A stretch of DNA of 64,000 nt from Phycisphaerales bacterium (GCA_020853095.1 JADYZN010000056.1:1-64000); one strand, 5' to 3'. Shown: positions 1 to 15,167, counted from the stretch's first letter. Numbers and translations are program-made. Notes: generated by a model from the sequence alone, not told the origin.

Positions 1-57
1 CAGCACCTTCAGCACATCCCGTTCCCGCTGTGACATCAATATCCGATCTTTCTCCAT
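1..57 (-). CDS. Transposase N-terminus (partial, runs off the left edge)
   Basis: Reading leftward from an ATG at 57-55 gives 19 codons beginning MEKDRILMSQRERDVLKVL, preceded by a purine-rich AAGGGATG-like ribosome site. An opening of MSQRERDxLKVL followed by a helix-turn-helix is what I recall for ISNCY-type transposases. It fits the repeated terminal motif immediately upstream. Only the first 19 residues are visible, so no catalytic residue can be checked and the family is tentative. Confidence 0.45.
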   Translation of the reverse strand, partial: MEKDRILMSQRERDVLKVL

Positions 58-121
58 CCCTTACAGTGGAGCCGAAACCGGACATTTCTACCTTGCTAAG
101 ACCGGACATTACTATTTTGCT
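1..121 (-). mobile_element. Right end of an insertion sequence (partial)
   Basis: Two near-identical 20-bp direct repeats of the form CCGGACATTnCTAnnTTGCT lie at 78-97 and 102-121, just upstream of a leftward ORF that runs off the window. Tandem motifs of this kind are typical of the terminal region of some insertion sequences (ISNCY-like), so the element probably ends near 121. The rest of the element lies outside the window, so the family is an inference. The end sits 65 bp from the tRNA-Cys gene. Confidence 0.5.
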
Positions 122-186
122 ACGACAGCGCCAGCTTGCGGACCTCTCGATCAGGCCTATAATCCCTCCGCTGACGTTGAGTTTGC

Positions 187-260
187 GGCCGGATACCCAA
201 GCGGACTAAGGGGATGGATTGCAAATCCATTATTCGTGGGTTCGAATCCCACTCCGGCCT
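187..260 (+). tRNA. tRNA-Cys (GCA)
   Basis: A full cloverleaf can be drawn: acceptor GGCCGGA pairs with TCCGGCC, the anticodon stem ATGGA/TCCAT encloses the loop TTGCAAA (anticodon GCA), and the T arm is GTGGG-TTCGAAT-CCCAC. The discriminator base is U, as expected for cysteine tRNAs. CCA is not encoded. Confidence 0.95.
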
Positions 261-304
261 TTGATTTTTCGGACATTGTTTCATCTCCCATCCCGACGAT
301 CCAT

Positions 305-1300
305 TCAAAACCATCGCTTTTTACGGAACAGGTAGAGCATGATCGTCATCGCGATGATCATCACGACCACCACCGCCCAGAAGGCGATTGGAGAATGCAA
401 CCCGGGGATGGATTCAAAATTCATCCCGAAAAAGCTCGTCACCACCGTGAACGGCAGCGCCACCACGCTGATGATCGTCAGCGTTTTCATGATCTGGTTC
501 AGATGGTTGCTGATGCTTGACAGGTAAATGTCCCGCGCGCCCATGATCAGGTCGCGGTACAGCTCCACCATTTCCACCACGCGGATCAGGTGATCCTGCA
601 CGTCCCGCAGATAGGTCCGCGTCGATTCGCGGATGAACGGGACTTCGCCGCGCGTCAATTGGGCGATCACCTCGCGCTGCGGGCCGACGATCCGCCGAAG
701 ATTCAGCAACTCGCGCTTCTTGCTGGAGATCGCATGAAGCACCTGCGGCGTCGGGTTGGCCATCGCCTCCTCCTCCAGATCGTCGATCGATTCCTGCAAA
801 TACTCCAGGATCGGCTCGTAATAATCGACCAGATGATCCAGGATGTTGTACAGAAGCATGTCGATGCCCGCGTCCAGCACCACCGGCGTGTCGGCCGCCG
901 CCTTCTGGGCCAGCTCGTCGAGATGTTTCAGTTCATCATCGTGGATCGTCACCAGGTATCGGCTCGACATGAACAGATCGATCTCCATCGTCTGGATGCG
1001 TTTGCGATGCTCCTTGACGTCCGGCCCATGCACCACCATGTAAAAGTATCCCTGCCGGTTGACGTCGCCGATGTGGTCGTAGCTTTCGATTTTTGGCCGC
1101 TGGCTGTATTTGATGCTGTCTTCGATGGCCAGCGGATGAAACCCGAACACTTCATCCAGCAGCGCATATTCCTTTTCCGTGGGCTGTTGCATGTCCAGCC
1201 ACAGCACCGCCTTCGGGTCCCGCAGCGCGGATCGCAAACTGTCCGCCGAGCTGTCCGTGGACGTTTTGTCATCACCGAATTTGATGAATGCGCGTATCAT
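305..1300 (-). CDS. corA: Magnesium/cobalt transporter CorA
   Basis: A 331-residue inner-membrane divalent cation channel of the CorA family. The protein has a long acidic and coiled N-terminal cytoplasmic part, then two C-terminal membrane helices (about 271-291 and 304-325). The signature GMN lies at 292-294 at the end of the first helix and forms the selectivity loop. It ends in a basic FRKKRWF tail. I chose the ATG at 1300 (MIRAFIKF) over an upstream in-frame start because the extra 40 residues are low-complexity Arg/Trp-rich and would overlap the divergent promoter region. It is transcribed divergently from the dipeptidase gene at 1372, leaving about 70 bp for two promoters. Length and topology are normal for CorA. 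Confidence 0.93.
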   Translation of the reverse strand: MIRAFIKFGDDKTSTDSSADSLRSALRDPKAVLWLDMQQPTEKEYALLDEVFGFHPLAIEDSIKYSQRPKIESYDHIGDVNRQGYFYMVVHGPDVKEHRKRIQTMEIDLFMSSRYLVTIHDDELKHLDELAQKAAADTPVVLDAGIDMLLYNILDHLVDYYEPILEYLQESIDDLEEEAMANPTPQVLHAISSKKRELLNLRRIVGPQREVIAQLTRGEVPFIRESTRTYLRDVQDHLIRVVEMVELYRDLIMGARDIYLSSISNHLNQIMKTLTIISVVALPFTVVTSFFGMNFESIPGLHSPIAFWAVVVVMIIAMTIMLYLFRKKRWF

Positions 1301-1371
1301 GAAATCCCACTTTATCCGCCGACAACCGAACACAACAGGACGTTCCCGCCATCGGATGCTATGATCCCTCC

Positions 1372-2754
1372 ATGCTCGACAACGTCCTTCAGACCATTGA
1401 CGATGGCTCGGAACAATCACTTGACGGCCTAAAGGAATTTTTACGCATCCCCAGTGTCAGCACGGATGACCATTACGCGGCCGACATCCGCCGTTGCGCG
1501 GATTGGCTGTCCGGCACGATCCGCAAGCTCGGACTGGAGTCGCAGGTCCTGCCCACCGCCGGCCATCCGGTGGTGGTCGCCCGCAACGAACACAAACCCG
1601 GCCGTCCCACCGTGTTGTTTTACGGGCATTATGATGTTCAACCCCCCGATCCGTTCGATCAATGGACCACGCCGCCGTTCGAGCCGGCCATTCGGGATGG
1701 CGCGATTTACGCCCGCGGCGCGGCCGACGACAAGGGACAGGTCTGGGCACACCTGCAAGCCATCCGCGCCTGGCAGCGACATGGCGGCCTGCCGGTCAAT
1801 CTCACCATGTTGATCGAAGGCGAAGAGGAGATCGGCAGCGGCAGCCTCCCCTCGTTCATCGAATCCCACCGCCAGATGCTGCACGCCGACCTGGCGATCG
1901 CCAGCGACACCAACCAGTACGCCCGCGGCCTGCCGGCCATCTCGTATGGTCTGCGCGGCATCGTCTTTCTGGAAATCACGCTCACCGGCCCATCCCACGA
2001 TCTGCACAGCGGCATTTATGGCGGGTCGGTCCCCAACGTCGCCAATGTCCTGACCGAATTGCTGGCGACGCTGCACGATAAGCAGGGCCGGGTCGCCGTC
2101 GAGGGTTTTTATGATGATGTGCTTCCGTTGACCGATGCCGAACGCCAGATGTGGCGAAAACTGCCATTTGACGAAAATCGCTTCGCGGCCGAGCTGGGGA
2201 TGTCTTCCTCCCAACTCGGCGGCGAAACCGGCTACAGCACCCTCGAACGCCAATGGGCCAGGCCCACCTGTGACATCAACGGCATGACCAGCGGCTATCA
2301 AGGCCCCGGCGCCAAGACCATTATCCCCGCCACCGCCTCGGCCAAACTCTCCATGCGGCTGGTCCCCAGCCAGGACCCCGCGACCATCGCCCGAAAGGTT
2401 GAACAGGCCCTTCGTCGGCGCTGTCCCGACACGGTCAAAATGGAGGTCAGCGGAGTCACCTGGTCGCCGCCGATTTTAATCCCCCACGATGGCGCTCCAA
2501 TTCGCGCGGCCACCGATGCGTACAAGGTCGGTTTCAACGCCACGCCAACCCTGATCCGGTGCGGCGGCACGTTGCACGTGGTGCCCCAGATCAAATCGCT
2601 GCTGGGGATCGACACGCTGCTGGTGGGTTTTGGACTGCCCGATGACCGGGTTCATTCACCCAATGAAAAATTCGACCTTGACGCCCTCCATTGCGGCACG
2701 CGGACGGCGGCGGCGCTCTATCAGAACCTTGCCGGGATCGACTCGTTCAAGTGA
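1372..2754 (+). CDS. M20 family metallopeptidase (dipeptidase)
   Basis: A 460-residue cytosolic zinc peptidase of the M20/ArgE/CNDP group. The metal and catalytic motifs are intact: YGHYDVQPPDP with His86, RGAADDKG with the bridging Asp119, and EGEEEIGSGS around 149-157. The dimerisation insert follows (GPSHDLHSG and after). The C-terminal ligand His lies in the HSPNEKF motif near the end. The family hydrolyses dipeptides or acylated amino acids, and the PPDPFDQW stretch after the first His favours the carnosinase-like dipeptidase branch. The substrate cannot be read from sequence. The 3' end overlaps the convergent SDR gene by 8 bp. Confidence 0.9.
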   Translation: MLDNVLQTIDDGSEQSLDGLKEFLRIPSVSTDDHYAADIRRCADWLSGTIRKLGLESQVLPTAGHPVVVARNEHKPGRPTVLFYGHYDVQPPDPFDQWTTPPFEPAIRDGAIYARGAADDKGQVWAHLQAIRAWQRHGGLPVNLTMLIEGEEEIGSGSLPSFIESHRQMLHADLAIASDTNQYARGLPAISYGLRGIVFLEITLTGPSHDLHSGIYGGSVPNVANVLTELLATLHDKQGRVAVEGFYDDVLPLTDAERQMWRKLPFDENRFAAELGMSSSQLGGETGYSTLERQWARPTCDINGMTSGYQGPGAKTIIPATASAKLSMRLVPSQDPATIARKVEQALRRRCPDTVKMEVSGVTWSPPILIPHDGAPIRAATDAYKVGFNATPTLIRCGGTLHVVPQIKSLLGIDTLLVGFGLPDDRVHSPNEKFDLDALHCGTRTAAALYQNLAGIDSFK

Positions 2755-3481
2755 TCGACCGCCCGCCATCCAGCCGGATGATCTGGCCAGTGATGTATGA
2801 GCCGCCGGTCACCAGGTAATGAACCAGCTCCGCGACATCCTCCGGCGTGCCGGATCGGGCCAGCGGCACGCGCTGAAGGTATTTTTCGCGTTCCTGTTTC
2901 GGATAATCATCCGGCCACTGAACCACCCCCGGCGCGATCCCGTTCACGGTGACCTGGGGCGCCAATTCCCGTGCCAGGCCAAGGGTTAAATTTCCCAACG
3001 CCGCCTTTGACGCACAATACGCCAGAAATTGCGGCCAGGGGCGTTCGGCCAGCAGGTCGATCATGTTCACCACATGGCCATGGTTTTTTCGCAGCATTTT
3101 TTCAAATTTCTGGCACAACAGCAGTGGGACCTGAACATGCAGTTGCATGAGCTGTTCAATCAATTTTATTCGGGTTATACTCAGCCGGGCAGGTTGATAG
3201 ATCGAGGCGTTGTTCACCAGCACATCCAGCCGTCCAAAATGACTGCGGATGGTTTTGGCAATGGCATTTACCGCCCGTTCGGGGTGGTTGAAGTCGGCCT
3301 TGATCGCCAACGCACGGGGGCCTTGCGGGTCCAATTGTTTTTGCAGGGCAATCGCTTCTTTGCGGCTGTGCATGTAAGTGAAGGCCACATCATAACCTGC
3401 GCTCCATAGGCGCTGGGTGATGGCCTTTCCCACGCGGATCGCTCCGCCGGTGATTAAAGCAACGGGTAGGGTATTTGCCAT
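2747..3481 (-). CDS. SDR family oxidoreductase, FolM/pteridine reductase-like
   Basis: A 244-residue short-chain dehydrogenase with a Rossmann fold. It starts with TGGAIRVG (11-18), the TGxxxRxG form seen in FolM and PTR1 pteridine reductases rather than the usual TGxxxGIG. NNAS is at 90-93. The active site is YCASK (Tyr155, Lys159). The position usually held by the catalytic Ser is Asp142 (NMIDLL), again as in PTR1/FolM. Reduction of dihydromonapterin or dihydrobiopterin with NADPH is therefore the best guess. An open frame continues 207 codons upstream, but the ATG at 3481 gives a normal-length protein and the upstream part is antisense to the next gene. Its start lies 30 bp from the divergent zincin gene. 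Confidence 0.82.
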   Translation of the reverse strand: MANTLPVALITGGAIRVGKAITQRLWSAGYDVAFTYMHSRKEAIALQKQLDPQGPRALAIKADFNHPERAVNAIAKTIRSHFGRLDVLVNNASIYQPARLSITRIKLIEQLMQLHVQVPLLLCQKFEKMLRKNHGHVVNMIDLLAERPWPQFLAYCASKAALGNLTLGLARELAPQVTVNGIAPGVVQWPDDYPKQEREKYLQRVPLARSGTPEDVAELVHYLVTGGSYITGQIIRLDGGRSIT

Positions 3482-3511
3482 GAGGGGAGCATAACATGAT
3501 ATGATCTGTTT

Positions 3512-3892
3512 GTGCCGTATCAGGTCAGCCAGGAACGTTTTGGGGAGTTGGTCGAGCGGGCGCTGGCCGAATTGCCGGCGGAATTTGCGCGATTTCTGGA
3601 GGAGGTTCCCATCGAGGTGCGTGATCGTCCATTGGCCGGCCAGCTTCAGCGGCTGGGGATGGGGCGTAATGAATTGCTGTTGGGCCTGTACCAAGGCCGG
3701 CCGCGAACCCAGCGGAGCGTTGAGGATTCCGGGCAAATGCCAGATGTCATTTATCTCTATCAAAAACACATTGAATCGGTCAGCCGTTCGGAAAAGGAGC
3801 TGATCCAGCAGGTCCGCACAACCGTATTGCACGAGATCGGGCATCATTTCGGCATGGATGAGGAGGACCTGGACAAGTTGGGCTACGGCTGA
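3512..3892 (+). CDS. Small zincin-like metallopeptidase family protein
   Basis: A 126-residue protein starting at GTG. The C-terminal motif HEIGHHFGMDEEDLDKLGY holds an HExxH zinc site (His107, Glu108, His111) followed by an acidic stretch. This matches the small bacterial zincin family often annotated as metallopeptidase family protein or DUF1025. No signal peptide or membrane helix is seen, so it is probably cytosolic. The natural substrate of the family is not known to me. It is divergent from the SDR gene and followed by 145 bp of non-coding DNA before the export cluster. Confidence 0.85.
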   Translation: MPYQVSQERFGELVERALAELPAEFARFLEEVPIEVRDRPLAGQLQRLGMGRNELLLGLYQGRPRTQRSVEDSGQMPDVIYLYQKHIESVSRSEKELIQQVRTTVLHEIGHHFGMDEEDLDKLGYG

Positions 3893-3954
3893 GGCCGCTG
3901 GTAAAGAATTGGCAAATGATGTGACGATTTTCTTTAATTGAACGATCCACGGGC

Positions 3955-3982
3955 TTGACCGGGCGTATGTCCGATTGATACT
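3955..3982 (+). promoter_or_regulatory. Candidate sigma-70 promoter for the HlyD/M50/SecA cluster
   Basis: A TTGACC -35 at 3955-3960 is followed after 16 bp by a GATACT -10 at 3977-3982, about 55 bp upstream of the chosen start of the first cluster gene. Match and position are reasonable, but this is a by-eye call. Confidence 0.35.
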
Positions 3983-4037
3983 TCGGGGGTTAGAATAAGC
4001 AAACGATGTGGGTGGGCGGATGTCTGGAGATTCTGGA

Positions 4038-4901
4038 ATGATCCCTTGGAAGAAGCGTTTAAGTGGTGTGGCGGTGTTGGCCGGATTGCTGGCCGGCGGC
4101 ATGGCATGGGCGGCTCAGGCCCCATCAGCGGCCGACCAGACGGTTCCTGCGGTGAGCAAGCCGTCGCAAAAGCGTGAATTGACGCTCACCATCCGCGGGA
4201 CCATCAGCCAAGTGCCTGTCAAAGAAGGAGATACGGTCAAGGCGGGGCAGCTTTTGCTGGCCGAGGACGACCGGGTGGAGCAAAAAGAATTGGAACGGTT
4301 GCAACTTGAGGCCCAGTCACAAATTGCGATCAAGGCCGCCGAGGCCGAATTGAAGGTGAAGCAGGCGGAATTGGCCAATTACGAGGAGATGTACAAAAAT
4401 CACGCTTCCAATGAGATCGAGCTGCGCAAGGCGCAGGCGGAGGCGGAGGTGGCCTTGTTGCAGGTGGAGAAGGCCAAACAGGATTCGGAAATCAGGAAAA
4501 AAGAGGCAGAGAAACAGGCGGCGGTGCTGGAATTGATGCGCCGATCCAGTCCGATTGACGGGGTGATCGCCAAGCTGGAAGTGGGGGTGGGCGAGGTGGT
4601 GGACCCGACCAAGCCGGTCTGCACGGTTGTGCAGAACAATCCATTGTGGGTTGAGGCGTACGTTCCGGTTGGCGTGGCGGCGCAGTTGAAGGTGGGGCAG
4701 ACGATGCAGGTGCGCTATCCGCAGGAGGACCAATGGCTGGCGGGCGAGGTGAATTTTCTGTCTCCCGTGGCGGATGAGCGCAGCGGGATGCGGTTGATCC
4801 GGCTGCAACTGCCCAATCCGGAGCTTCGCGAATCCGGGTTGAACATGCTGTTGCGGTTGCCGGACCAGGTGGCGCGGGCCGAGGATGCTTCATCCCATTA
4901 A
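4038..4901 (+). CDS. HlyD/RND-type periplasmic adaptor (membrane fusion protein)
   Basis: A 287-residue secreted adaptor. Residues 1-28 form a signal peptide (MIPWKKRLSGVAVLAGLLAG, then an AWA-AQA cleavage region). A half biotinyl-lipoyl motif follows (VPVKEGDTVKAGQLL), then a long alpha-helical hairpin rich in Ala, Glu, Lys and Gln. The second lipoyl half is SSPIDGVIAKLEVGVGEVV, and a beta-barrel domain follows. This is the plan of MFP/HlyD proteins that bridge an inner-membrane pump and an outer-membrane exit. I chose the ATG at 4038 because GGAG lies 8 bp upstream and the signal peptide then starts cleanly; in-frame ATGs at 4008 and 4020 are alternatives. It is the first gene of a four-gene run, 33 bp before the next. 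No RND pump is nearby. Confidence 0.85.
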   Translation: MIPWKKRLSGVAVLAGLLAGGMAWAAQAPSAADQTVPAVSKPSQKRELTLTIRGTISQVPVKEGDTVKAGQLLLAEDDRVEQKELERLQLEAQSQIAIKAAEAELKVKQAELANYEEMYKNHASNEIELRKAQAEAEVALLQVEKAKQDSEIRKKEAEKQAAVLELMRRSSPIDGVIAKLEVGVGEVVDPTKPVCTVVQNNPLWVEAYVPVGVAAQLKVGQTMQVRYPQEDQWLAGEVNFLSPVADERSGMRLIRLQLPNPELRESGLNMLLRLPDQVARAEDASSH

Positions 4902-4934
4902 GTCACAAGACGGCTATTGAACAAGGTAAAAGCG

Positions 4935-6848
4935 ATGTCATCAGGTATCGTCGAGTCATCACAGGGATCGGGAGCGGACACGCCGGCGGCGTCCGGGCCG
5001 GCGCGATCGAAGCTGGTGCAGCGTCTGCTGGCGGCGTCGGAAAACCTGCCGGCGTTTATGAACGATCTGTTGACGACGCAGGCGGTGTCGGTGGCGGGGA
5101 CGGAGGCGGCGGCGTTTCTGATCGAACGGCAACAGGAGGCGGCGGCGGAATTCAACCTTCGGCCGATCGCGCACATCCGGCCGGACAATTCGAGCCAGGA
5201 GACGCGCCAGGCGGCGATCAATGCGTTCGTGGACATCATTCGGCCGTGCGTGATTCAGGGGAAGGATGGCGCGATCGAAGTCGGCCCGACGCCCGATGCG
5301 GGGGAGATCCAGTTCTGCCTGGTGACGCTGTTGCGCAGCGAGGGGCAGATCGTGGCGGTGTCGGCGGTGATCACGCGCTGCCGGGACGTTGAACGGGCCA
5401 AGCAGCGGTTGATGTCGATGCAGCTCGTGGCGGGGTATTTTGAGTTGTATTCGCTTCGGCGCAGCAGCGAGCAGTCGCGGTTCATCGCCCAGAGCCATCA
5501 GCAGGTGCTGCAACTGGCCGGCGCGGTGGCGACGGCCGAGGGGTTTGAGGGGGCGTCGATGAACCTGTGCAACGAACTGGCCCAGCGCAGCGGCGCTGCG
5601 CGGGTGGCGATCGGGTGGCTGAGCGGGACGAGGATCAAGCTCAGGGCGCTGTCGCACACGGAAAAATTCGATAAAAAGCAGGAACTGGTGGTGGCCCTGG
5701 AGCGCGCGATGGAGGAGTGCGTGGACCAGGAGCAGCCGGTGCAGTTTGATCCCAAGGGTGAGACTTCATCGCCCAACGTGTCGCGGGCGGCCCGCGAATT
5801 GTCGCAGTCGCAGGGGGGCAACATCGTGTTGACGCTGCCATTGCGGCGGCGCGCCGAAGTGGTGGGGGCGGTGACGCTGGAATTTCCATCGGATCGTCAA
5901 CTGGGCGAACACGCGGCCAGCGGGCTGGCGGTGGCGGCGGATCTGCTGGCTCCCCAGTTGTACGACCGGTTTCAAAACGACCGCTGGCTGATCACCAAGA
6001 CCGGCGTGAGCATCCGAGAAACCGCGAAACTGGCGGTGGGCCCCAAACACATGCTGGCCAAGCTGATCATCGTACTGGTGATCGCGGCGGGGTTGTTCGT
6101 GACGTTTTATCGTCCGATGTATCGCGTCAACGCGGCGTTCAAGTTTGTGCCGGTGCAACGGCAGTCGATCTCGGCGCCGTTCGAGGGAAGGGTGCAGGAG
6201 GCGTACGTCCGGCCGGGCCAGGCGGTCAAGGCCGGCGAGCTGATGTTGAAGATGGACACCTCCGACCTGGAGATCAAACTGTCGGAGGCGATGAGCAAGG
6301 CGCAGCAACTGGCCAAGGAAGCGGACAAATACCGCGGCGAGGACAAGATCGCCGAGATGCGGATCGCGCTGGAGGAAAAGGCGCAGGTCGAGTCGCAGGT
6401 CCAGTTGATTCAACTTCAGATTCAGCGTGCGAGCATCGTGGCGCCGATCGACGGCGAGGTGATCGCCGGGGATTGGCAGCACAAGAAAGGGGCGCCGTTG
6501 AAGCAGGGGGATGAGGTCTTCCAGGTGGCCGATCCGCATCATCTGCGGGCGGAATTGACGGTCTCCGACCGGGACATCCAGGAGATGGGGGAGCATTTTG
6601 TCGGCAAGCTCGCGACGACGGGCCAGCCGCAGGAAAAATACGAGTTTGAGGTGTCGCGGATCGTGCCGCTGGGCCGCGCCGATGAGGGGAGCAACGTCTT
6701 CACGGTGTACGCGGACATGCGGCAGACCTCGCCGACGTGGCTGCCGGGGATGGTGGGGCAGGCGCGAATCGACATCGCCAAACGGCCGCTGGTGTGGATC
6801 TGGACGCATCGCGTGGTTGAGTTTGTGCGGTTGAAATTCTGGGTGTAG
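4935..6848 (+). CDS. GAF domain-HlyD fusion adaptor protein
   Basis: A 637-residue protein with an unusual plan. There is no signal peptide. Roughly 370 N-terminal residues look cytoplasmic and include a GAF-like region (about 195-340). One membrane helix follows (about 376-394), then a periplasmic HlyD part: a lipoyl half (SAPFEGRVQEAYVRPGQ), a short helical hairpin, a second lipoyl half (APIDGEVIAGDW) and a beta barrel. It ends with a hydrophobic tail near VWIWTHRVVEFVRLKFWV. The GAF part could sense a ligand and set the state of the exporter, which is inference. The ATG at 4935 (with AAGG upstream) is preferred over a TTG at 4917. It resembles the C-terminal half of the next gene product, suggesting the two adaptors work together. 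Confidence 0.8.
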   Translation: MSSGIVESSQGSGADTPAASGPARSKLVQRLLAASENLPAFMNDLLTTQAVSVAGTEAAAFLIERQQEAAAEFNLRPIAHIRPDNSSQETRQAAINAFVDIIRPCVIQGKDGAIEVGPTPDAGEIQFCLVTLLRSEGQIVAVSAVITRCRDVERAKQRLMSMQLVAGYFELYSLRRSSEQSRFIAQSHQQVLQLAGAVATAEGFEGASMNLCNELAQRSGAARVAIGWLSGTRIKLRALSHTEKFDKKQELVVALERAMEECVDQEQPVQFDPKGETSSPNVSRAARELSQSQGGNIVLTLPLRRRAEVVGAVTLEFPSDRQLGEHAASGLAVAADLLAPQLYDRFQNDRWLITKTGVSIRETAKLAVGPKHMLAKLIIVLVIAAGLFVTFYRPMYRVNAAFKFVPVQRQSISAPFEGRVQEAYVRPGQAVKAGELMLKMDTSDLEIKLSEAMSKAQQLAKEADKYRGEDKIAEMRIALEEKAQVESQVQLIQLQIQRASIVAPIDGEVIAGDWQHKKGAPLKQGDEVFQVADPHHLRAELTVSDRDIQEMGEHFVGKLATTGQPQEKYEFEVSRIVPLGRADEGSNVFTVYADMRQTSPTWLPGMVGQARIDIAKRPLVWIWTHRVVEFVRLKFWV

Positions 6849-6896
6849 GGTGGGCAATGCCCATCAAATCGTTCGTGGTGGGCAATGCCCACCCTA
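6846..6896 (+). repeat. Dispersed palindromic (REP-like) repeat
   Basis: The outer arms TAGGGTGGGC and GCCCACCCTA can pair, and each half also contains its own small palindrome TGGGCAATGCCCA. A second copy with the same architecture lies at 61367-61434. It starts at the stop codon of the GAF-HlyD gene and could also act as a hairpin in the mRNA between the second and third cluster genes. Confidence 0.75.
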
Positions 6897-6947
6897 CGGC
6901 CCTGAAAAAACGGGGACATGACTGAATCGGCGGGATACGGCTAATCA

Positions 6948-9131
6948 ATGACCTTGCAGCTTCGCCCGACATTTTCTGAATCGTGGTATCGGGTGGCGGA
7001 ATTGCGCGCCAAGTTGCGGAGCAGCGCGCACATTTTCCGCCAGTTTTATCGCGGCGAGCGCTGGTACGTCGTCCGCGATCCGGCCGGCAACCAGTTTCAC
7101 CGTCTCAGCGACGCGGCCTATCGGTTCGTGGGATTGCTGGACGGTCGGCGGACGGTGGCCGAGGCGTGGGAACTGGTCGGCGGCCAGTTGGCCGACGATG
7201 CTCCGACGCAGCCGGAGGTGATCCAGATTCTCTCGCAGCTTTATTCGGCCAACCTGCTGGAGGCGGACATCTCGCCCGATGCCACCGTGCTGTTGCGCCG
7301 GCACAAACAACTGCAAAAACGGCAGATGCAGGGCCGGCTGATGAACGTCCTGTTTCCCCGCATTCCCTTGTGGGATCCGGATCGGTTCCTGAAGCGGTGG
7401 ATGCCGGTGATGGGCCTGCTGCTCAGCAAGTTCGGGGCGATCCTGTGGATGGTGGTGGTGGCGGCGGGATTGTTCATTCTGACCAGCCGTGGATGGGACA
7501 AGCTGTTCGCGGCCACCAGCTCGGCGACCGATCCGGGCAACTGGTTTTTCCTCTGGGTGACGTTCGTCCTGATCAAGTTCATCCACGAATGCGGCCACGC
7601 CTTCGCCTGCCGGAGGTTCGGCGGCGAAGTTCACGAGATGGGGATCATGTTCCTGGTCTTCGTGCCCACCCCCTACGTGGACGCCTCCACCGCGTGGGCG
7701 TTCGCCAGCCGCTGGCAGCGGATGTTCGTCGGGGCGGCCGGCATGATCTTTGAACTGTTCGTCGCCTCGATCATGGCGTTCGTCTGGGCGAACACCAACG
7801 AGACGTCGATCTGGAATCAACTGGCGTTCAACGCCATGCTGATCGCCAGCGTCACGACGATCATCTTCAATGCCAACCCGCTGCTGCGATACGATGGTTA
7901 TTACATGCTCTCGGACTGGCTGGAGATCCCCAATCTTCAGCAGCGCAGCACCGAATACGCCCTGGGTTTGATCAAACGGCACATCTTCCGCGTGAAACTG
8001 CAACAGCCGCTGCCGCCGCTTGGCCAGCGGGCGTGGATGCTGGTGTACGCGATCTGCTCGTCGATCTATCGCGTCTTCGTGGGGATCGCGATCATCCTGT
8101 TCGTGGCGTTCAAGGTTCCGGTGCTGGGGGTGCTGATGGCCATCGGCGGCGTCGTCACCTGGCTGGTGATGCCGGTGGTGAAACTGGGGCGATACCTGAT
8201 GCTGGAGCCGGAGCTGCACCGCAAACGCGGCAGGGCGATCGCCTTCAGCGGGGCGATTGCGGCGGCGATCGTGATCCTGATCGGCCTGGTGAGGTTTCCG
8301 GTGCATTTTCGGACCGAGGGCGTGGCCGAACCGCTGCGTCAGGAACGGTTGTTCGCGATGACATCGGGGTTTGTCAGCCAGATCCCGGCGCACGATGGCC
8401 AACTGGTGCATCAGGGCGATCCGATCCTGATCTGTCGAAACGACGAGCTGGCGACCGAGGTCCGGCAGTTGCAGCACGTTCTGGCGGCGCTGGAGATTCG
8501 ACGGCAGTCCAACGTGTCGGACCCGGCGCAACGGCAGATCGACGAGATCGAAATCACGGCCAACCAGCGGAAACTGGCCGATGCGCAGCGCCGGCTGGAT
8601 GACTTGACGATTCGCGCCCCCATCGACGGCCGGCTGGTGGCGCCGGGACTGGAAGACCTGGCCGGGCGGTTTTTGCCCGAACGAACCGAAGTGGCGATGG
8701 TGGCGGCGATGGATCAGTTGGTGGTGCGGTCGGTGTTGCAGCAGTCCGATGCGGAACTGGCGACGATGGTTCCCGGGGACCAGTGGCGGCCGGAGGTGCG
8801 GCTGGCCGGGGCGAGCGACCAGGTGCTCAAGGCGGTGAAGGTGGAATTGATCCAGGGGGCGCAGCAGGAGGTGGCCCACCCCTCGTTGACGTGGGCGGGG
8901 GGCGGACAGGTCGCCGCCGACCCGCGCGATGACCGGCAGGTGCGGCCGCTGGTGCCGCAATTCGAGGTGCGGGTGACGTTGGACAACGCCAATGAGCGAT
9001 ATCTTCCCGGGCAGATGGCGGTGATCCGATTCCAGCCGTTCAGCCGGCCGTTGATCTGGCAATGGACCAACAGCTTTCTGCGGCTGATCCAGACCGAGAG
9101 CATGCGCCAGCCGGCGGGGATGACGCCGTAG
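6948..9131 (+). CDS. PqqD-like/site-2 protease (M50)/HlyD fusion protein
   Basis: A 727-residue multi-domain membrane protein. Residues about 25-100 form a PqqD/RRE-like winged helix (RLSDAAYRFVGLLDGRRTVAEAW). A polytopic M50 core follows with the zinc motif HECGHA (His213, Glu214, His217). The distal ligand motif NPLLRYDGYYML has Asp316. The C-terminal third (about 460-700) is an HlyD lipoyl/barrel module with IRAPIDGRLVAPGLEDL. All M50 metal ligands are present, so protease activity is expected. PqqD-like domains bind peptide leaders in RiPP systems, so a peptide substrate is plausible but unproven. It lies 99 bp after the GAF-HlyD gene and 51 bp before the SecA-like gene. No precursor peptide gene is recognisable nearby. 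Confidence 0.85.
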   Translation: MTLQLRPTFSESWYRVAELRAKLRSSAHIFRQFYRGERWYVVRDPAGNQFHRLSDAAYRFVGLLDGRRTVAEAWELVGGQLADDAPTQPEVIQILSQLYSANLLEADISPDATVLLRRHKQLQKRQMQGRLMNVLFPRIPLWDPDRFLKRWMPVMGLLLSKFGAILWMVVVAAGLFILTSRGWDKLFAATSSATDPGNWFFLWVTFVLIKFIHECGHAFACRRFGGEVHEMGIMFLVFVPTPYVDASTAWAFASRWQRMFVGAAGMIFELFVASIMAFVWANTNETSIWNQLAFNAMLIASVTTIIFNANPLLRYDGYYMLSDWLEIPNLQQRSTEYALGLIKRHIFRVKLQQPLPPLGQRAWMLVYAICSSIYRVFVGIAIILFVAFKVPVLGVLMAIGGVVTWLVMPVVKLGRYLMLEPELHRKRGRAIAFSGAIAAAIVILIGLVRFPVHFRTEGVAEPLRQERLFAMTSGFVSQIPAHDGQLVHQGDPILICRNDELATEVRQLQHVLAALEIRRQSNVSDPAQRQIDEIEITANQRKLADAQRRLDDLTIRAPIDGRLVAPGLEDLAGRFLPERTEVAMVAAMDQLVVRSVLQQSDAELATMVPGDQWRPEVRLAGASDQVLKAVKVELIQGAQQEVAHPSLTWAGGGQVAADPRDDRQVRPLVPQFEVRVTLDNANERYLPGQMAVIRFQPFSRPLIWQWTNSFLRLIQTESMRQPAGMTP

Positions 9132-9182
9132 GATTGGCGCTGGATGCGGATCGGGCCAGTGACAATCGACATCGAATAATCC

Positions 9183-11117
9183 ATGACACAAGTCCTGCAC
9201 AACGAGGTTTATGAAGTCTTTGACGCCCGGCGGGTGAAGGCGCCGGAGTTGCGCGGGCTGGATCAGTTCGTCAACGGGCTGGTGGGATGGGCGAAAAACC
9301 GCCGGCCGATGCTCAAGCGGCTGCGGGCCATGGCCGACCAGGTGGAAAAGCTGGAGCCGGAGATCCACGAGCTGGGGGCGACGCGGTTTCGCGAGCAGGT
9401 GGCCTTATCACGGGATGAAGCGAGGCTTGGGCGGCTGGAGGGGGATGCGTTCATTCGCGGCGTGGCGCTGGCGCGCGAAGCGGCGTGGCGGGCGCTGGGA
9501 TTGCGGCCATTTCCAGTGCAGTTGATGGGGGCGATGGCGATGTGCCGGGGGGCGATCGCGGAGATGGCCACCGGCGAAGGCAAGACGCTGACGGCGTCTT
9601 TGGCCGCGTCGATCTGGGCCTGGTCCGGCCGGCCCGTGCACGTGATCACGGTCAACGATTACCTGGTGACGAGGGATTCCCACGAAATGGGGCCGGTGTA
9701 CCAGTTGCTGGGGTTGTCGGTGGGATCGGTGGTTCACGAATCCGCGCCGCAGGAACGCCACGAACATTACCGGCGGGATGTGGTCTATTGCACCAGCAAG
9801 GAGCTGCTGGCGGATTTTCTGCGCGACCAGATCGCCATGGGGAACGTGCGCACGTCGACGCAGATGGCGCTGGGCATGATGATCTCGTCACAGTCGAGGG
9901 CGATGATGGTTCCGGGGCTGTTCCGGGTGATCGTGGACGAGGCCGACAGCCTGCTGATCGACGAGGCGGTGACGCCGCTGATCATTTCCAATTCGCCCCA
10001 GGAGGATGCCAACGCGGTGCTGTATCGCGCGGCCGACGAGCTGGCGACGAAGTTGAAGTCCGGCCGCGATTTTCTGATCGACTGGACGACCCGCACGGTG
10101 GAACTGACCGCGCGCGGCCAGGACCGGCTGGATCTGCTGGCCGATGGATCGGGATTCTGGCGCGGCCAGCGGCGCCGCGAAGAGCTGGTGACGCAGGCGC
10201 TGGTGGCGCGGCATTGTTTCATCCGCGATGAGCAATATCTGATCGCCGCGGATGGCAGTGTGCAGATCATCGACGAATTCACCGGCCGGGTGATGGCCGA
10301 CCGAAGCTGGCGGCACGGCCTGCATCAGGCGATCGAGGTCAAGGAAAACGTCAAGGTCACCGCCGACAAGGAAAACCTGGCCCGCCTCAGTTTTCAGCGG
10401 TTTTTCCGCCAATACCCCACCATGGCCGGCATGACCGGCACGGCCTGGGAATCATCGGGGGAATTGTGGCAGATTTATCAACGTCCGGTGATCCGCATCC
10501 CCACCAACCGGCCGTGCATCCGCAAGCAACTGCCCGTTCGCATGTTCGACACGATGGACCTCAAATGGCAAGCCGTGGTGGAGCGGGTATGTGAATTGAA
10601 CGATCAGGGCCTGCCGGTGCTGGTGGGGACTCGCAGCGTGCTGGCATCGGAGGAAGTCAGCAAACGCTTGAGCGCCATGAGCCGGGCGCATCGCGTCCTG
10701 AACGCCAACCAGACCGCGCAGGAAGCGTCGATCGTGGCCGAAGCCGGTCAGGTGGGCCGAATCACCGTCGCCACCAACATGGCCGGCCGCGGAACCGACA
10801 TCAAATTGAGCAAGGGGGTCGCCGAGCTGGGTGGCCTTCAGGTGATTGCCACCGAGCCGCACGGTTCAGGCCGGGTGGATCGCCAGCTTTATGGCCGTGC
10901 CGCCCGCCAGGGGGATCCGGGGACGGCGCAGCTGTTTTGCAGCGCCGAGGATGATGTGTTCATCCGTCACGCTCCGATCGCCCGCAAGGCGTGGAGGACG
11001 ATCGGCCCCATGCGGCTGATCCGCATCGCCCAGGCCCGCGCAGAACGGCTGGCTCGGTTCAATCGCAAGCAGGTTCTCAAATCCGACGAGTGGATGGACC
11101 AGTCGTTGCCGTTTTGA
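9183..11117 (+). CDS. SecA-like translocase ATPase, C-terminally short
   Basis: A 644-residue DEAD-type ATPase clearly homologous to SecA. Walker A ATGEGKT is at 129-135 and Walker B DEAD at 252-255. A recognisable preprotein cross-linking region follows (FTGRVMADRSW, then MTGTAWES). The second motor domain has MAGRGTDIKL and the arginine motif GRAARQGD. The protein stops within what would be the first long scaffold helix (QARAERLARFNRK). It therefore lacks the two-helix finger, wing domain and zinc tail of housekeeping SecA (about 900 residues in E. coli). It is likely a dedicated motor for the adjoining M50/HlyD proteins and not the general secretion ATPase; this role is inference. It is the last gene of the cluster. 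Confidence 0.87.
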   Translation: MTQVLHNEVYEVFDARRVKAPELRGLDQFVNGLVGWAKNRRPMLKRLRAMADQVEKLEPEIHELGATRFREQVALSRDEARLGRLEGDAFIRGVALAREAAWRALGLRPFPVQLMGAMAMCRGAIAEMATGEGKTLTASLAASIWAWSGRPVHVITVNDYLVTRDSHEMGPVYQLLGLSVGSVVHESAPQERHEHYRRDVVYCTSKELLADFLRDQIAMGNVRTSTQMALGMMISSQSRAMMVPGLFRVIVDEADSLLIDEAVTPLIISNSPQEDANAVLYRAADELATKLKSGRDFLIDWTTRTVELTARGQDRLDLLADGSGFWRGQRRREELVTQALVARHCFIRDEQYLIAADGSVQIIDEFTGRVMADRSWRHGLHQAIEVKENVKVTADKENLARLSFQRFFRQYPTMAGMTGTAWESSGELWQIYQRPVIRIPTNRPCIRKQLPVRMFDTMDLKWQAVVERVCELNDQGLPVLVGTRSVLASEEVSKRLSAMSRAHRVLNANQTAQEASIVAEAGQVGRITVATNMAGRGTDIKLSKGVAELGGLQVIATEPHGSGRVDRQLYGRAARQGDPGTAQLFCSAEDDVFIRHAPIARKAWRTIGPMRLIRIAQARAERLARFNRKQVLKSDEWMDQSLPF

Positions 11118-11132
11118 CAATTCAAATTCAAG

Positions 11133-11215
11133 TGTGCCACAGAGACACGGAGATCACAGAGAATAACAATAAAATTCTTTGTATTTCTCTGTGTGCTCCG
11201 TGTCTCCGTGGCACA
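11133..11215 (+). repeat. Long inverted repeat, probable bidirectional terminator
   Basis: Arms of about 33 bp starting TGTGCCACAGAGACACGGAG and ending CTCCGTGTCTCCGTGGCACA pair almost perfectly around an A/T-rich loop. It lies exactly between two convergent genes (the SecA-like gene and lysA), so a terminator role is likely. CACAGAGACACGGAG-type sequences are a common dispersed repeat in bacterial genomes. Confidence 0.7.
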
Positions 11216-11223
11216 TTGTCTTT

Positions 11224-12513
11224 TTACTTGACGACCCGTTCAGGCCCCACCAGGTCTTCGAACGTCTCGCGCCGGCGTATGATCGTGTATTGATCCCCAT
11301 CGACCAGGATTTCAGGCGGGCGGGGGCGGTTGTTGTAATTGCTGCTCATGGCGAATCCGTACGCCCCGGCCGTGAAGACCGCCAGCAAATCGCCCCGCTT
11401 GGTGACCGGCAGCGGGCGGTTTTGCGCCAGGTAATCGCCCGATTCGCACACCGGGCCCACCACGTCCACGATTTCGCCATCGCGCGGTTCAAAGGACTTG
11501 TCACGCTGCGGGGGCACGTTGGCCGCATCCGGCGACACCGGCCAGATGTGGTGATAGGAGTCGTACAGCGTCGGCCGGATCAGGTCGTTCATGCCGGCGT
11601 CGATGATGACGAATTTTTTGCTGCCGCCCATTTTTCGATACAACACCCGCGTCAGCAGAATGCCGGAATTTCCGGAGATGTACCGGCCCGGCTCCAGGGC
11701 GATGCGGTACGGTTTGTCCTTCAGCAACGGCACCAGCGCCCTGGCGTGTTCGGTCACCGGGTGGGCCTGTCCCGGCCGCTCGTAATTGACCGCGAACCCG
11801 CCGCCGAGGTCCAGCCATTCGATTTTGTGGCCGCGGGCCGACAGCCGGTCGATCAGGTCGATCGCCTTTTTCACCGCGTCGACGTACGGCTGGATTTCAT
11901 ACACCGGTGAGCCGATGTGCAGGTGAATCCCGCCGATGCGGAGGTTTTTCAGCGAGCGGTATTGTTCAAAGACGCGCTCGGCCCGTTCGATGTCCACACC
12001 GAACTTGGTCTCTTTTTTTCCCGTGGTCGTCTTGACGTGCGTCTTGGGATCGACGTCCGGGTTGATGCGGATGGCGCCCACCGCCCGTTTGCCCATCAAG
12101 GCGGCGATGCGGTCGATGTTTTCGATCTCCGCCTCCGATTCGATGTTGAACGCTGCGATGCCCACCTCGATCGCCTGTCGAATCTCTTCGTCCGTCTTTC
12201 CCACGCCCGCGTAGATGATCTTTTTCGGGTCGCCGCCGGCCTGCAGGGCGCGGTACAGCTCGCCGCCGCTGGTGACGTCGAACCCGCACCCTTCGCCGGC
12301 GAGAACCTTCAGCAGATTGATGTTTCCGTTGCTCTTGATCGAGTAACAGATCATCGCGCCGATCGGCGCGAACGCCTCGGCCACCTGCCGATAATGGTGC
12401 AGCAGCGTCGCCTTGGAATAAACGTACGCCGGCGTCCCGACCTTGACGGCGATCCGCTCCGCCGGCACGCCTTCACAATACAACTCTCCGTTTTGATATT
12501 GAAAATAGTCCAT
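11224..12513 (-). CDS. lysA: Diaminopimelate decarboxylase
   Basis: A 429-residue PLP enzyme of the alanine-racemase fold III group that converts meso-diaminopimelate to lysine and CO2 in the cytosol. The PLP lysine is in CYSIKSNGN (Lys60). Other signatures are HIGSPV, the EPGRYISGNSG phosphate-binding loop and GPVCESGDYLA with the catalytic Cys that completes the neighbouring subunit's active site. Length is typical of LysA. It begins 6 bp after the stop of the TIM-barrel gene and is probably co-transcribed with it. It ends against the inverted repeat at 11133-11215. Confidence 0.95.
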   Translation of the reverse strand: MDYFQYQNGELYCEGVPAERIAVKVGTPAYVYSKATLLHHYRQVAEAFAPIGAMICYSIKSNGNINLLKVLAGEGCGFDVTSGGELYRALQAGGDPKKIIYAGVGKTDEEIRQAIEVGIAAFNIESEAEIENIDRIAALMGKRAVGAIRINPDVDPKTHVKTTTGKKETKFGVDIERAERVFEQYRSLKNLRIGGIHLHIGSPVYEIQPYVDAVKKAIDLIDRLSARGHKIEWLDLGGGFAVNYERPGQAHPVTEHARALVPLLKDKPYRIALEPGRYISGNSGILLTRVLYRKMGGSKKFVIIDAGMNDLIRPTLYDSYHHIWPVSPDAANVPPQRDKSFEPRDGEIVDVVGPVCESGDYLAQNRPLPVTKRGDLLAVFTAGAYGFAMSSNYNNRPRPPEILVDGDQYTIIRRRETFEDLVGPERVVK

Positions 12514-12519
12514 GATTGT

Positions 12520-13353
12520 TTAATGAATTTTGCCCAAATGCTCGTACGCCCGCCGGGCGACACCCGCCGCGGAAGTTTCATACGGATACAATTCCACCGT
12601 CATCCAACCGTCATAGCGAATGTCCCGCAAGGCGGCGAAGATGGATGAAAAATCGATCACACCCCGTCCCGGCGTCAGGTGCTGATGAACGCGATTGTCG
12701 CCGATGTCCTCCAGATGGACGTGAACCACCTGGTCGGCCATTTCCCGGATCACCTTCGCGGGGTCTTCGCCGACGCAAAACAGATGTCCCACGTCGCAAT
12801 TCATCCGCACCGCCGGCTCATCGCGAAAATACCGGTTCTTGAATGCCACGTATTCCTCGGCCGACTGGATCATCAACCCCGGCTCCGGCTCGATGCCCAG
12901 CGTGATGTTCAATTTTTTGGCCAATGGCAGCACCTGATGCAGCCCCTGGGCATACCGGTCGGCCGCCTCATCGGTCGACAATCCCATCCCGATCAACGGC
13001 CCACCGGGCTGCAAACTGACCGTCCGGCAACCGATATCGGCCGCCAGTTCAATCGCCGCCAGGGTATGCTCCACGCGAAGCTGTCGTTTGGCCGGGTCGT
13101 GCTCGATCCAGGTCGGGTGATACGTGTCCCCGCAGGCGAAAAGCGTAAAGGCGTTGACGTTGCTGACGGCCAGCTTTCGTTCGGCGATTTGCGCCCGCAA
13201 CTTCGCGCGGTCCTCCCGTCCGAACGCCCGCGGATCGGCATGGGGAACGTCCGCCATGATCTCCACCGCCCCGTATCCGATCCGCGCGATCTCATCGACC
13301 GCCTCGTCGACGCGGTTCTGTTTGAACGCATTGGTCGAAAACGCCAGTTTCAT
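12520..13353 (-). CDS. Sugar phosphate isomerase/epimerase (TIM barrel)
   Basis: A 277-residue xylose isomerase-like TIM barrel. The four metal-binding motifs expected for the family are visible in order: GIEPEPGLM (Glu), MNCDVGHLF (Asp and His), HVHLEDIG (His) and TVELYPYE (Glu). The family holds sugar epimerases, myo-inosose dehydratases and endonuclease IV relatives, so the substrate cannot be told. The ATG at 13353 gives the standard opening MKLAFSTNAF; a start 14 codons upstream adds only an unrelated tail. It precedes lysA by 6 bp, but lysine synthesis has no obvious need for it, so the pairing may be only transcriptional. Confidence 0.82.
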   Translation of the reverse strand: MKLAFSTNAFKQNRVDEAVDEIARIGYGAVEIMADVPHADPRAFGREDRAKLRAQIAERKLAVSNVNAFTLFACGDTYHPTWIEHDPAKRQLRVEHTLAAIELAADIGCRTVSLQPGGPLIGMGLSTDEAADRYAQGLHQVLPLAKKLNITLGIEPEPGLMIQSAEEYVAFKNRYFRDEPAVRMNCDVGHLFCVGEDPAKVIREMADQVVHVHLEDIGDNRVHQHLTPGRGVIDFSSIFAALRDIRYDGWMTVELYPYETSAAGVARRAYEHLGKIH

Positions 13354-13452
13354 GCCGGCCGGCATTGTAGGGCCATCGCCCCGCTCGGACCACATCCTCC
13401 CACCCGCTCATCCAGTTGACCGCCGCCAATCGCCATCCTACAACTCCCACAG

Positions 13453-14556
13453 ATGACCAGCCTCACCTACGAGCAAAGCGGCGTGGATTACGGCCCCCTG
13501 GACGCCTTCAAACGCGCCTGCCAGCAACAGGCCGCCGCCACCGCCGCCGCCCTGGCCTCCCACAACGTCACCGAGCCTCCGGGCACCCGCGGCGAAAGCG
13601 CCTACCTGGTCGAAACCCCCGATGCCTTCTGGGCACACGTCGAGGAAGGCCTGGGCACCAAAAACCTCGTCGCCGACGCCATGGCGAAACTGACCGGCAA
13701 AACCCATTACCACGCCATCGGAATCGACACCGTCGCCACGATCGTCAATGACCTGATCACCTGCGGCGCGTTGCCCCTTTCCGTGGCGATGCACGCCGCG
13801 GTCGGCGATTCGGGCTGGTTTGCCGATGCCCCCCGCGCCAACGAGCTGGCCCGCGGGTTTGCCGATGGGTGCAGGGCGGCCAACGCCGTCTGGGGCGGCG
13901 GCGAAACCCCCGCCCTCAAGGGAATGGTCAACCCCGACACGATCATCCTGGCCGGATCCGCATTCGGCCGAATCTCCCCCAAATCGCACCGCATCACCGG
14001 CGATGTCCGCGAAGGCGACTCCATCATCCTCCTGGCCGGCTCGGGCGTGCAAACCAACGGCCTGACCTTGTGTCGTGCCCTGGCCGAACGATTGCCCGAA
14101 GGGTATCTCACCCCCATCGCCGATGGCCGAACCTACGGCCAGGCCCTGCTCGATCCTTCGGTGATCTACGTCAATTTCATCGCCGCCTGCCAGAAGGCCG
14201 GCCTCCACCTTCATTACGCCGCCCACCTGACCGGCCACGGCTGGCGTAAATTGATGCGGCTCAACGAACCGTTCGTCTATCGCATGACCCACCTCGGCCA
14301 GCCCCAACCGATTTTCGATGCGATCCGTCAGGCCGCAAAGATGGACCTGCGCGAAGCCTATGCCACGTTTAACATGGGGGCTGGTTTTGCCGTCTGGGTT
14401 GACCCCGCCGACGCCGCCACCGCCATCCGGCTGGCGGCCCAGGCCGGCCACGAAGCATGGATCGGCGGCACCACCCACAAACAGGACGGCCGAAAGGCCG
14501 TGGAGCTGGTTCCGCTCAACATCACCTACGAAGCCGACACCCTCCAGGTGCGATAA
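13453..14556 (+). CDS. purM: AIR synthase-type protein (PurM-like)
   Basis: A 367-residue protein of the PurM superfamily. The N-terminus has the SGVDYGPLDAFK motif typical of phosphoribosylformylglycinamidine cyclo-ligase. ATP-site elements follow: GIDTVATIVNDLITCGALP, then GGGETPALKGMV and the later GSGVQTNGLTL. PurM closes the imidazole ring of AIR in purine synthesis using ATP. The C-terminal GHGWRKLMR and NMGAGFAVWV motifs also fit. Typical PurM has DxVGTK and GxGxHSNG; here the corresponding stretches are slightly changed (GIDTVAT, GSGVQTNG). A divergent PurM paralog therefore remains possible. It is divergent from the TIM-barrel gene with 99 bp between starts. Confidence 0.8.
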   Translation: MTSLTYEQSGVDYGPLDAFKRACQQQAAATAAALASHNVTEPPGTRGESAYLVETPDAFWAHVEEGLGTKNLVADAMAKLTGKTHYHAIGIDTVATIVNDLITCGALPLSVAMHAAVGDSGWFADAPRANELARGFADGCRAANAVWGGGETPALKGMVNPDTIILAGSAFGRISPKSHRITGDVREGDSIILLAGSGVQTNGLTLCRALAERLPEGYLTPIADGRTYGQALLDPSVIYVNFIAACQKAGLHLHYAAHLTGHGWRKLMRLNEPFVYRMTHLGQPQPIFDAIRQAAKMDLREAYATFNMGAGFAVWVDPADAATAIRLAAQAGHEAWIGGTTHKQDGRKAVELVPLNITYEADTLQVR

Positions 14557-14564
14557 ACCATCGA

Positions 14565-14585
14565 GGCGGCTCACAATGAGCCGTC
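14565..14585. terminator. Hairpin between convergent purM and cyclophilin genes
   Basis: A 9-bp stem GGCGGCTCA / TGAGCCGTC with a 3-nt loop lies 9 bp past the purM stop. It lacks a clear T tract on either strand, so termination would be weak or factor-assisted. Confidence 0.4.
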
Positions 14586-14626
14586 TTGGGCGGTCGTCGC
14601 ATCACGGCCGGGGATGAATTGTTCGA

Positions 14627-15115
14627 TCACGATTCCTGGATCGTCACGCTTTGCAGGATGTCGCCCTGCTTGGTGTTGTTGACGATGTCCTGACCGGATT
14701 TGACCTGCCCGAAGACGGTGTGCTTGCCATCCAGCCAGTCGGTGACGACGTGGGTGATGAAAAATTGCGAACCGTTGGTGTTGGGGCCGGCGTTGGCCAT
14801 GGAAAGCGAACCGATCTGGTGCTTGTGCGGATTTTTGCGGGGATCGGTTTCGTCGCCGAAGCGATAGCCCGGGCCGCCGCTGCCGGTGCCGGTGGGGTCT
14901 CCACCCTGGATCATGAAATCCTTGATGACGCGATGGAACTTGGTTCCATTGTAAAACCCTTCGCGTGCCAGAAAGACGAAATTGTTGACCGTGGCGGGTG
15001 CTTCCAATGGAAAAAGATCACAGACGATCGTGCCGCGGTTGGTGGTGAAGGTGGCGGCGTATTTTTTGCCGGTGTCAATCGACATCGCCGGCGGCTTGGG
15101 ATACTGGTTGGACAT
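14627..15115 (-). CDS. Peptidyl-prolyl cis-trans isomerase, cyclophilin type
   Basis: A 162-residue single-domain cyclophilin that speeds cis-trans isomerisation at prolines. Signature stretches are [15 protein letters not shown] (with the catalytic Arg), TNGSQFFIT and KHTVFGQV. The ligand-site Trp of human cyclophilin A is not in its usual place, as in many bacterial forms, which tend to bind cyclosporin poorly. There is no signal peptide, so it is probably cytosolic. The gene is followed downstream by the hairpin at 14565 and lies 52 bp after the hydroxyacid dehydrogenase gene on the same strand. Confidence 0.92.
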
Positions 15116-15167
15116 TGGTTTCTCCTGAAGTTGAGGTTATGGATCGCTTGATCCTGAAAAAAGGCGA

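Follow-up and report, generated by a model that had tools for sequence, protein, structure and literature searches.

We analysed a stretch of 64,000 nucleotides from the genome of a Phycisphaerales bacterium (GCA_020853095.1, JADYZN010000056.1:1-64000; the whole stretch is called the window below), which carries near its beginning a cluster of four intact, co-directional genes separated by gaps of 33, 99 and 51 bp. The genes encode a HlyD-type adaptor, a GAF-HlyD protein, a protein with PqqD-like, Peptidase_M50 and HlyD parts (M50-HlyD) and a short SecA (Table 1). An earlier note on the same DNA had listed these genes and domains and read them as an undescribed machine for the export of peptides or proteins, with SecA as the motor and with no RND or ABC exporter beside it. 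Gene order and domain content were reproduced with Pfam, the PqqD match of the window protein (22.0 bits) lying slightly below the cut-off of 23.4 bits, and no gene for an ABC transporter, an RND pump or TolC was recognised on reading the open reading frames (ORFs) of positions 1-16000. As to novelty, the note was wrong: the module had been reported by Kamneva, Poudel and Ward (2015, PMC4452313) as 'secondary SecA_DEAD' loci. That paper suggested the SecA protein as an ATPase and the M50 protein as a possible pore, and named no cargo, signal or function; among the genes it lists are META1p2399-2402 of Methylobacterium extorquens AM1, a strain carrying the module. The module is thus already known, while the candidate cargo that we propose for it, proteins with an N-terminal LEPR-XLL motif, is new as far as the searchable literature shows.

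Table 1. Genes of the cluster and of its upstream neighbour (positions in the window)
Product	Position	Strand	Evidence
HlyD/RND_mfp periplasmic adaptor, 287 aa	4038-4901	+	TIGR01730 105.9 bits, over cut-off; HlyD_3 1.6e-20
GAF-HlyD, 637 aa	4935-6848	+	Pfam GAF 9e-6, HlyD_3 3.9e-19
PqqD-like + Peptidase_M50 + HlyD (M50-HlyD), 727 aa	6948-9131	+	Pfam; HExxH 213-217, NPLLRYDG 310-317
Short SecA (NBD1, PPXD, NBD2), 644 aa	9183-11117	+	Pfam SecA_DEAD 2.7e-93, SecA_PP_bind, P-loop_SecA
Zincin_1 metallopeptidase, 126 aa	3512-3892	+	PF06262 6.2e-29

Gene products and conservation of the module

The product of the first gene (HlyD_3/HlyD_D23 in Pfam) carries, as judged by eye and from hydrophobicity, a Sec-type signal peptide with the hydrophobic core LSGVAVLAGLL (Kyte-Doolittle (KD) value 2.33). 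The start of GAF-HlyD was placed at the ATG at 4935, an alternative TTG start lying upstream at 4917. The predicted structure of this protein (pLDDT 84.6) contains two GAF-like domains at the N-terminus, the second of them inferred from secondary structure only, a putative transmembrane helix (373-391) and a MacA/MexA-like adaptor part, and its best Foldseek match is MacA (3.7e-15). The model of M50-HlyD (pLDDT 88.5) shows an N-terminal strand-helix domain (21-106), a membrane part made of helices and an adaptor similar to MacA/MexA, the HlyD part matching MacA with Z 16.8. Because the HlyD part dominates the fold comparison, the PqqD-like and M50 assignments rest mainly on Pfam and NCBIfam matches and on motifs: PqqD was matched in 24 of 46 homologues at E<=0.001, and the HExxH and NPLLRYDG motifs are conserved, with invariant active-site residues. 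Residues 11-107 of the model, its PqqD-like part, match a domain of the carbamoyltransferase GdmN (7vzq) over 88 residues with Z 10.3.

In the short SecA the Walker A (GEGKT) and DEAD motifs are conserved. Its alignment with Bacillus subtilis SecA pairs query residues 43-596 with residues 18-552 of the chain and stops after the second nucleotide-binding domain (NBD2). With the usual domain borders of SecA, the scaffold, the two-helix finger, the wing and the C-terminal linker are therefore missing, so the earlier description of this protein as finger-less was right. SecA_SW was matched in Pfam neither in the window protein nor in any of 34 homologues, and the NCBIfam SecA2 models score the window SecA under their cut-offs. 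A separate canonical SecA frame, full-length and of 1305 aa, is present in the same genome. In our tree, outside which the sequences of the 2015 paper lie, the short SecAs, the window protein and those of proteobacteria among them, are monophyletic (support 1.0) and stand apart from eight canonical SecAs of relatives. Two short SecA genes in public plasmid records (L104, 15059-17083; L106, 14204-16120) are annotated as 'prepilin peptidase', which hides the module from text searches.

Conservation of the gene order across genera, which the earlier note had put forward as a check, was found in both sets of loci that we compiled. Among 40 loci of the same class, drawn from short-SecA matches in relatives, M50-HlyD adjoins the short SecA in 39, GAF-HlyD is present in 34 and HlyD is found nearby in 26, some of the missing neighbours being contig ends. 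A scan of GTDB genomes yielded at least 588 relatives of M50-HlyD, of which 80 loci were kept, mostly from Pseudomonadota and delta-type metagenome-assembled genomes, with one record each from Omnitrophota, Nitrospiraceae and Rokubacteria. In these 80 loci the short SecA occurs 77 times, GAF-HlyD 76 times and HlyD 61 times; a DUF3467 gene is present in 25, and a TolC gene is in view in nine. Since the order is conserved in about 120 other loci, a chance cluster of four genes is ruled out. Within one genus, the genomes G054 (L059/L072), G037 (L060/L069) and G028 (L070/L071) each have the module twice, and the second copy has diverged further. The zincin gene precedes the module in 11 loci from the same family and was not detected in the loci of other families; it is conserved in the same family only, and we set it aside as probably not part of the machine.

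LEPR-XLL proteins as candidate cargo

The LEPR-XLL profile NF012209 (LEPR-8K) describes an N-terminal motif of 24 positions and has a cut-off of 17 bits. No export route for this motif is stated in the searchable literature. We searched 61 genomes of the window's class for the short SecA and for LEPR-XLL proteins, leaving out one genome (G032) as ambiguous. LEPR matches (E<=0.06) were found in 42 of the 44 genomes that have the short SecA and in 0 of the 16 that do not; with the window's own family excluded, the figures are 16/18 and 0/16 (Fisher 7e-8). Within a single genus (g26), one genome (G047) has both the short SecA and LEPR, whereas two others (G029 and G055) have neither. The association extends beyond the class. 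In a sample of 294 genomes of the phylum, M50-HlyD (E<=1e-20) is present in 30 of the 31 LEPR genomes as against 37 of the 263 others (Fisher 2.9e-21), and in 274 gammaproteobacterial genomes (the class of Neptuniibacter; LEPR at E<=1e-3, M50-HlyD at E<=1e-60) it is present in 17/19 and 18/255, respectively (Fisher 1.4e-15). LEPR matches over the cut-off were also obtained in 39 of 43 module genomes reached through the GTDB loci.

In many Pseudomonadota the two are linked physically. The LEPR matches compared lie in open frames of a median of about 7,200 aa, and in 25 of the 27 genomes with comparable coordinates such a giant frame begins or ends inside the locus, as verified by frame and position; this count replaces a coordinate-only adjacency count of 32/39, small contigs being able to coincide by chance. 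The giant LEPR gene within the locus is found in Pseudomonadota and a few other phyla, most commonly just upstream of DUF3467/GAF-HlyD and on the same strand. Plasmids of Pseudosulfitobacter, Thalassospira, Methylosinus and Alisedimentitalea carry a giant gene ahead of GAF-HlyD and M50-HlyD. The motif stands at the N-terminus of the giant protein in Pseudosulfitobacter and Methylosinus and slightly upstream of the annotated start in Alisedimentitalea; the giant protein of Thalassospira, annotated LEPR-XLL, reads IEPRILLSADP. In another genome (G006) a LEPR protein with RTX-like repeats is encoded just downstream of SecA. In Pseudomonadota the small DUF3467 gene often lies between the giant LEPR gene and GAF-HlyD (L106, 9726-10046; L109, 9717-10013).

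The N-termini themselves differ from Sec signal peptides in hydrophobicity. In 50 of them the motif reads [FLIV]-E-x-L-E-P-R-[VL]-L-L-S-[AG]-D, lies at a median distance of 39 aa from the start that our script selected and is preceded by a basic region (19% K/R, 8% D/E). The maximal hydrophobicity over 11 residues has a median of 1.02 and reaches 2.0 in none, so that a Sec-like hydrophobic core was found in 0/50; in 60 HlyD/TolC controls the median of the same measure is 2.39, and 78% attain 2.0 or more.

In the genome to which the window belongs, the candidate cargoes are FG-GAP, CAP-domain, subtilase-family and PKD/RTX proteins and a small protein without a family. All of them are encoded outside the window, which contains no LEPR ORF; the earlier note missed the link. 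NF012209 gave no match in this genome at E<=0.001, an E-value that a 24-position model hardly reaches in a whole genome; when the search was repeated at E<=10, the FG-GAP and CAP proteins (C26 and C61) scored over the cut-off (21.4 and 17.8 bits). The subtilase-family protein (PF00082; L307, 1552-2829) carries LEPRQLLS near its N-terminus and is a candidate exported protease.

A related arrangement occurs on plasmids of E. coli, Citrobacter, Kosakonia and Burkholderia (L108, L294, L296, L299), where a homologue of M50-HlyD is accompanied by TolC, two HlyD genes and a giant protein, and SecA is absent from the locus. The giant neighbours are Ig-like or DUF4347 proteins with LExRxLFDGA-like leaders, such as LESRQLFDGAA, LEPRMLFDGAI and LEPRVVYDASV. 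Seven M50-HlyD proteins of this sister lineage form one separate clade (support 1.0); in its Magnetospirillum and Phyllobacterium loci the annotated neighbour shows no such leader.

A proposed export route and its alternatives

The best explanation of the cluster, to which we assign a probability of about 0.78 on the strength of genome comparison, is that it encodes an envelope-spanning exporter of proteins in which an N-terminal LEPR-XLL leader would replace the Sec signal peptide. The reading of the SecA, M50 and HlyD components as a protein exporter is well supported, and large secreted LEPR-XLL proteins are its probable cargo. The earlier proposal of peptide or protein export is supported as far as proteins are concerned; small peptides are unlikely, as the linked genes encode very large LEPR-XLL proteins.

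We suppose that the export could proceed as follows. M50-HlyD would act as the reader, cutter and membrane unit, its PqqD-like and M50 parts binding the LEPR leader at the inner membrane and M50 cutting near L-L-S-[AG]. The short SecA, the proposed motor, would feed or push the chain with ATP, doing so without the usual two-helix finger. In the periplasm the three HlyD-type subunits may form a conduit that leads to a channel of the TolC family, whose gene would lie elsewhere in the genome, and the GAF domains may either respond to a signal or keep the SecA protein in place. OEP/TolC-family genes are present elsewhere in the window's genome, none of them beside the locus. In a wider form, which we consider somewhat better than an even bet, LEPR-XLL would be a cleavable N-terminal signal for a distinct secretion pathway that is present in several phyla and exports proteins as long as about 14,000 residues. 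The energy for this pathway would come from a SecA pared down to the motor core, and an intramembrane protease, itself a part of the periplasmic conduit, would act as the gate; a sister pathway lacking SecA would read the related leader LExRxLFDGA.

Several observations weigh against the LEPR-XLL exporter. In the window's genome only two LEPR proteins exceed the NF012209 cut-off, the others having been found by the motif, and the LEPR genes are, as assembled, unlinked to the locus. The thresholds of the co-occurrence tables were set after the tables had been seen, and the Fisher values ignore shared ancestry. Three genomes (G179, G316 and G532) are LEPR-positive and yielded no M50-HlyD, with few candidates scored per genome; incomplete assembly, missed candidates or another route are possible causes. 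Finally, 3/80 GTDB loci, the locus on the Thalassospira plasmid and the loci of the sister lineage lack SecA, which therefore may not be the only motor. In view of that lineage, with its TolC, two HlyD proteins and M50-HlyD, an indispensable role for SecA, the motor in the earlier note, is unproven. The distribution suggests that the leader is read by M50-HlyD and not by SecA, and that some versions of the system do without SecA.

Among the alternatives, the least improbable, still an unlikely one, is a type-I-like exporter with SecA as its ATPase and some other cargo, LEPR-XLL proteins co-occurring with it only as both suit makers of giant surface proteins. The subunits, being the same as in Kamneva et al. 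(2015), and the unlinked LEPR genes of the window's genome agree with it; however, it is hard to see how lifestyle would explain why many Pseudomonadota have giant LEPR genes directly linked to the module, or why the two are present or absent together within one genus, and the LEPR proteins are devoid of a Sec-like signal. Slightly less likely again is a SecA2-like role, in which the short SecA would serve the usual SecYEG channel and M50 and HlyD would act later or in signalling. The retention of NBD1, PPXD and NBD2 with intact ATPase motifs would suit such a role, yet canonical SecA uses on SecYEG the scaffold, two-helix finger and wing, none of which the short protein has, and its near-constant linkage to M50-HlyD and GAF-HlyD also points away from SecYEG.

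Given three proteins of the membrane fusion protein type, the TolC gene of some loci and the giant proteins of secreted type encoded in the same cluster, it is very improbable that M50 and GAF constitute an envelope sensor of regulated proteolysis that moves no cargo, with SecA as a chaperone or unfoldase, even though GAF domains and M50 proteases are frequent in signalling. Least credible of all is a pathway like those of ribosomally synthesized and post-translationally modified peptides (RiPPs), in which M50 and the PqqD-like domain would trim small precursors for maturation and export, as in the daptide or YydH/LiaK pathways. PqqD-like domains do bind leaders in RiPP pathways, and the best NCBIfam matches of the M50 part are daptide_HExxH (163.7 bits) and then LiaK/YydH (44.5 bits). 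Both scores, however, fall below the curated cut-offs (300, as NF041824 needs, and 225), and the linked genes encode proteins of thousands of residues; on these grounds the small-precursor reading was judged unlikely, small precursor ORFs not having been searched for.

If the link between LEPR-XLL proteins and the exporter is true, LEPR-XLL would become an address label for protein export, and a short motif would provide a cargo list for each genome. Joining the secondary SecA locus with LEPR-XLL makes both directly testable. It would also give a hint as to how certain bacterial proteins of very large size may traverse two membranes with neither an ABC transporter nor a Sec signal, and it would imply a SecA motor that operates although it lacks the elements believed to drive chains through SecYEG.

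Comparison with known systems

The proposed system shares with type I secretion (HlyB-HlyD-TolC) the HlyD-type adaptors, here three HlyD-domain proteins, a presumed TolC-type exit and giant RTX-like cargo. It differs in that the locus has no ABC transporter, its place being taken by the M50 protease and the short SecA, and in that the proposed signal is N-terminal, as judged from the N-termini only, which were the part examined, whereas the type I signal is C-terminal. Like the accessory SecA2 systems, it would dedicate a second SecA to a subset of proteins; unlike the known SecA2 proteins, which keep the C-terminal half at least in part, the window SecA stops at the end of NBD2 and goes together with M50 and HlyD proteins. 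The LEPR-XLL domain NF012209 enters the comparison as the N-terminal motif of the proposed cargo. The SecA-less TolC/HlyD/HlyD/M50-HlyD plasmid loci are similar in that a homologue of M50-HlyD adjoins a giant protein whose leader is related, and are distinguished by the lack of SecA, the separate M50-HlyD clade and a leader that ends in LFDGA or similar. The closest counterpart is the secondary SecA_DEAD locus of 2015, in which likewise a short SecA without SecA_SW stands beside M50/HlyD, GAF/HlyD and HlyD proteins; beyond it, the present analysis adds LEPR-XLL proteins as a proposed cargo, examined by profile and by linkage, a far larger number of genomes and the SecA-less sister lineage.
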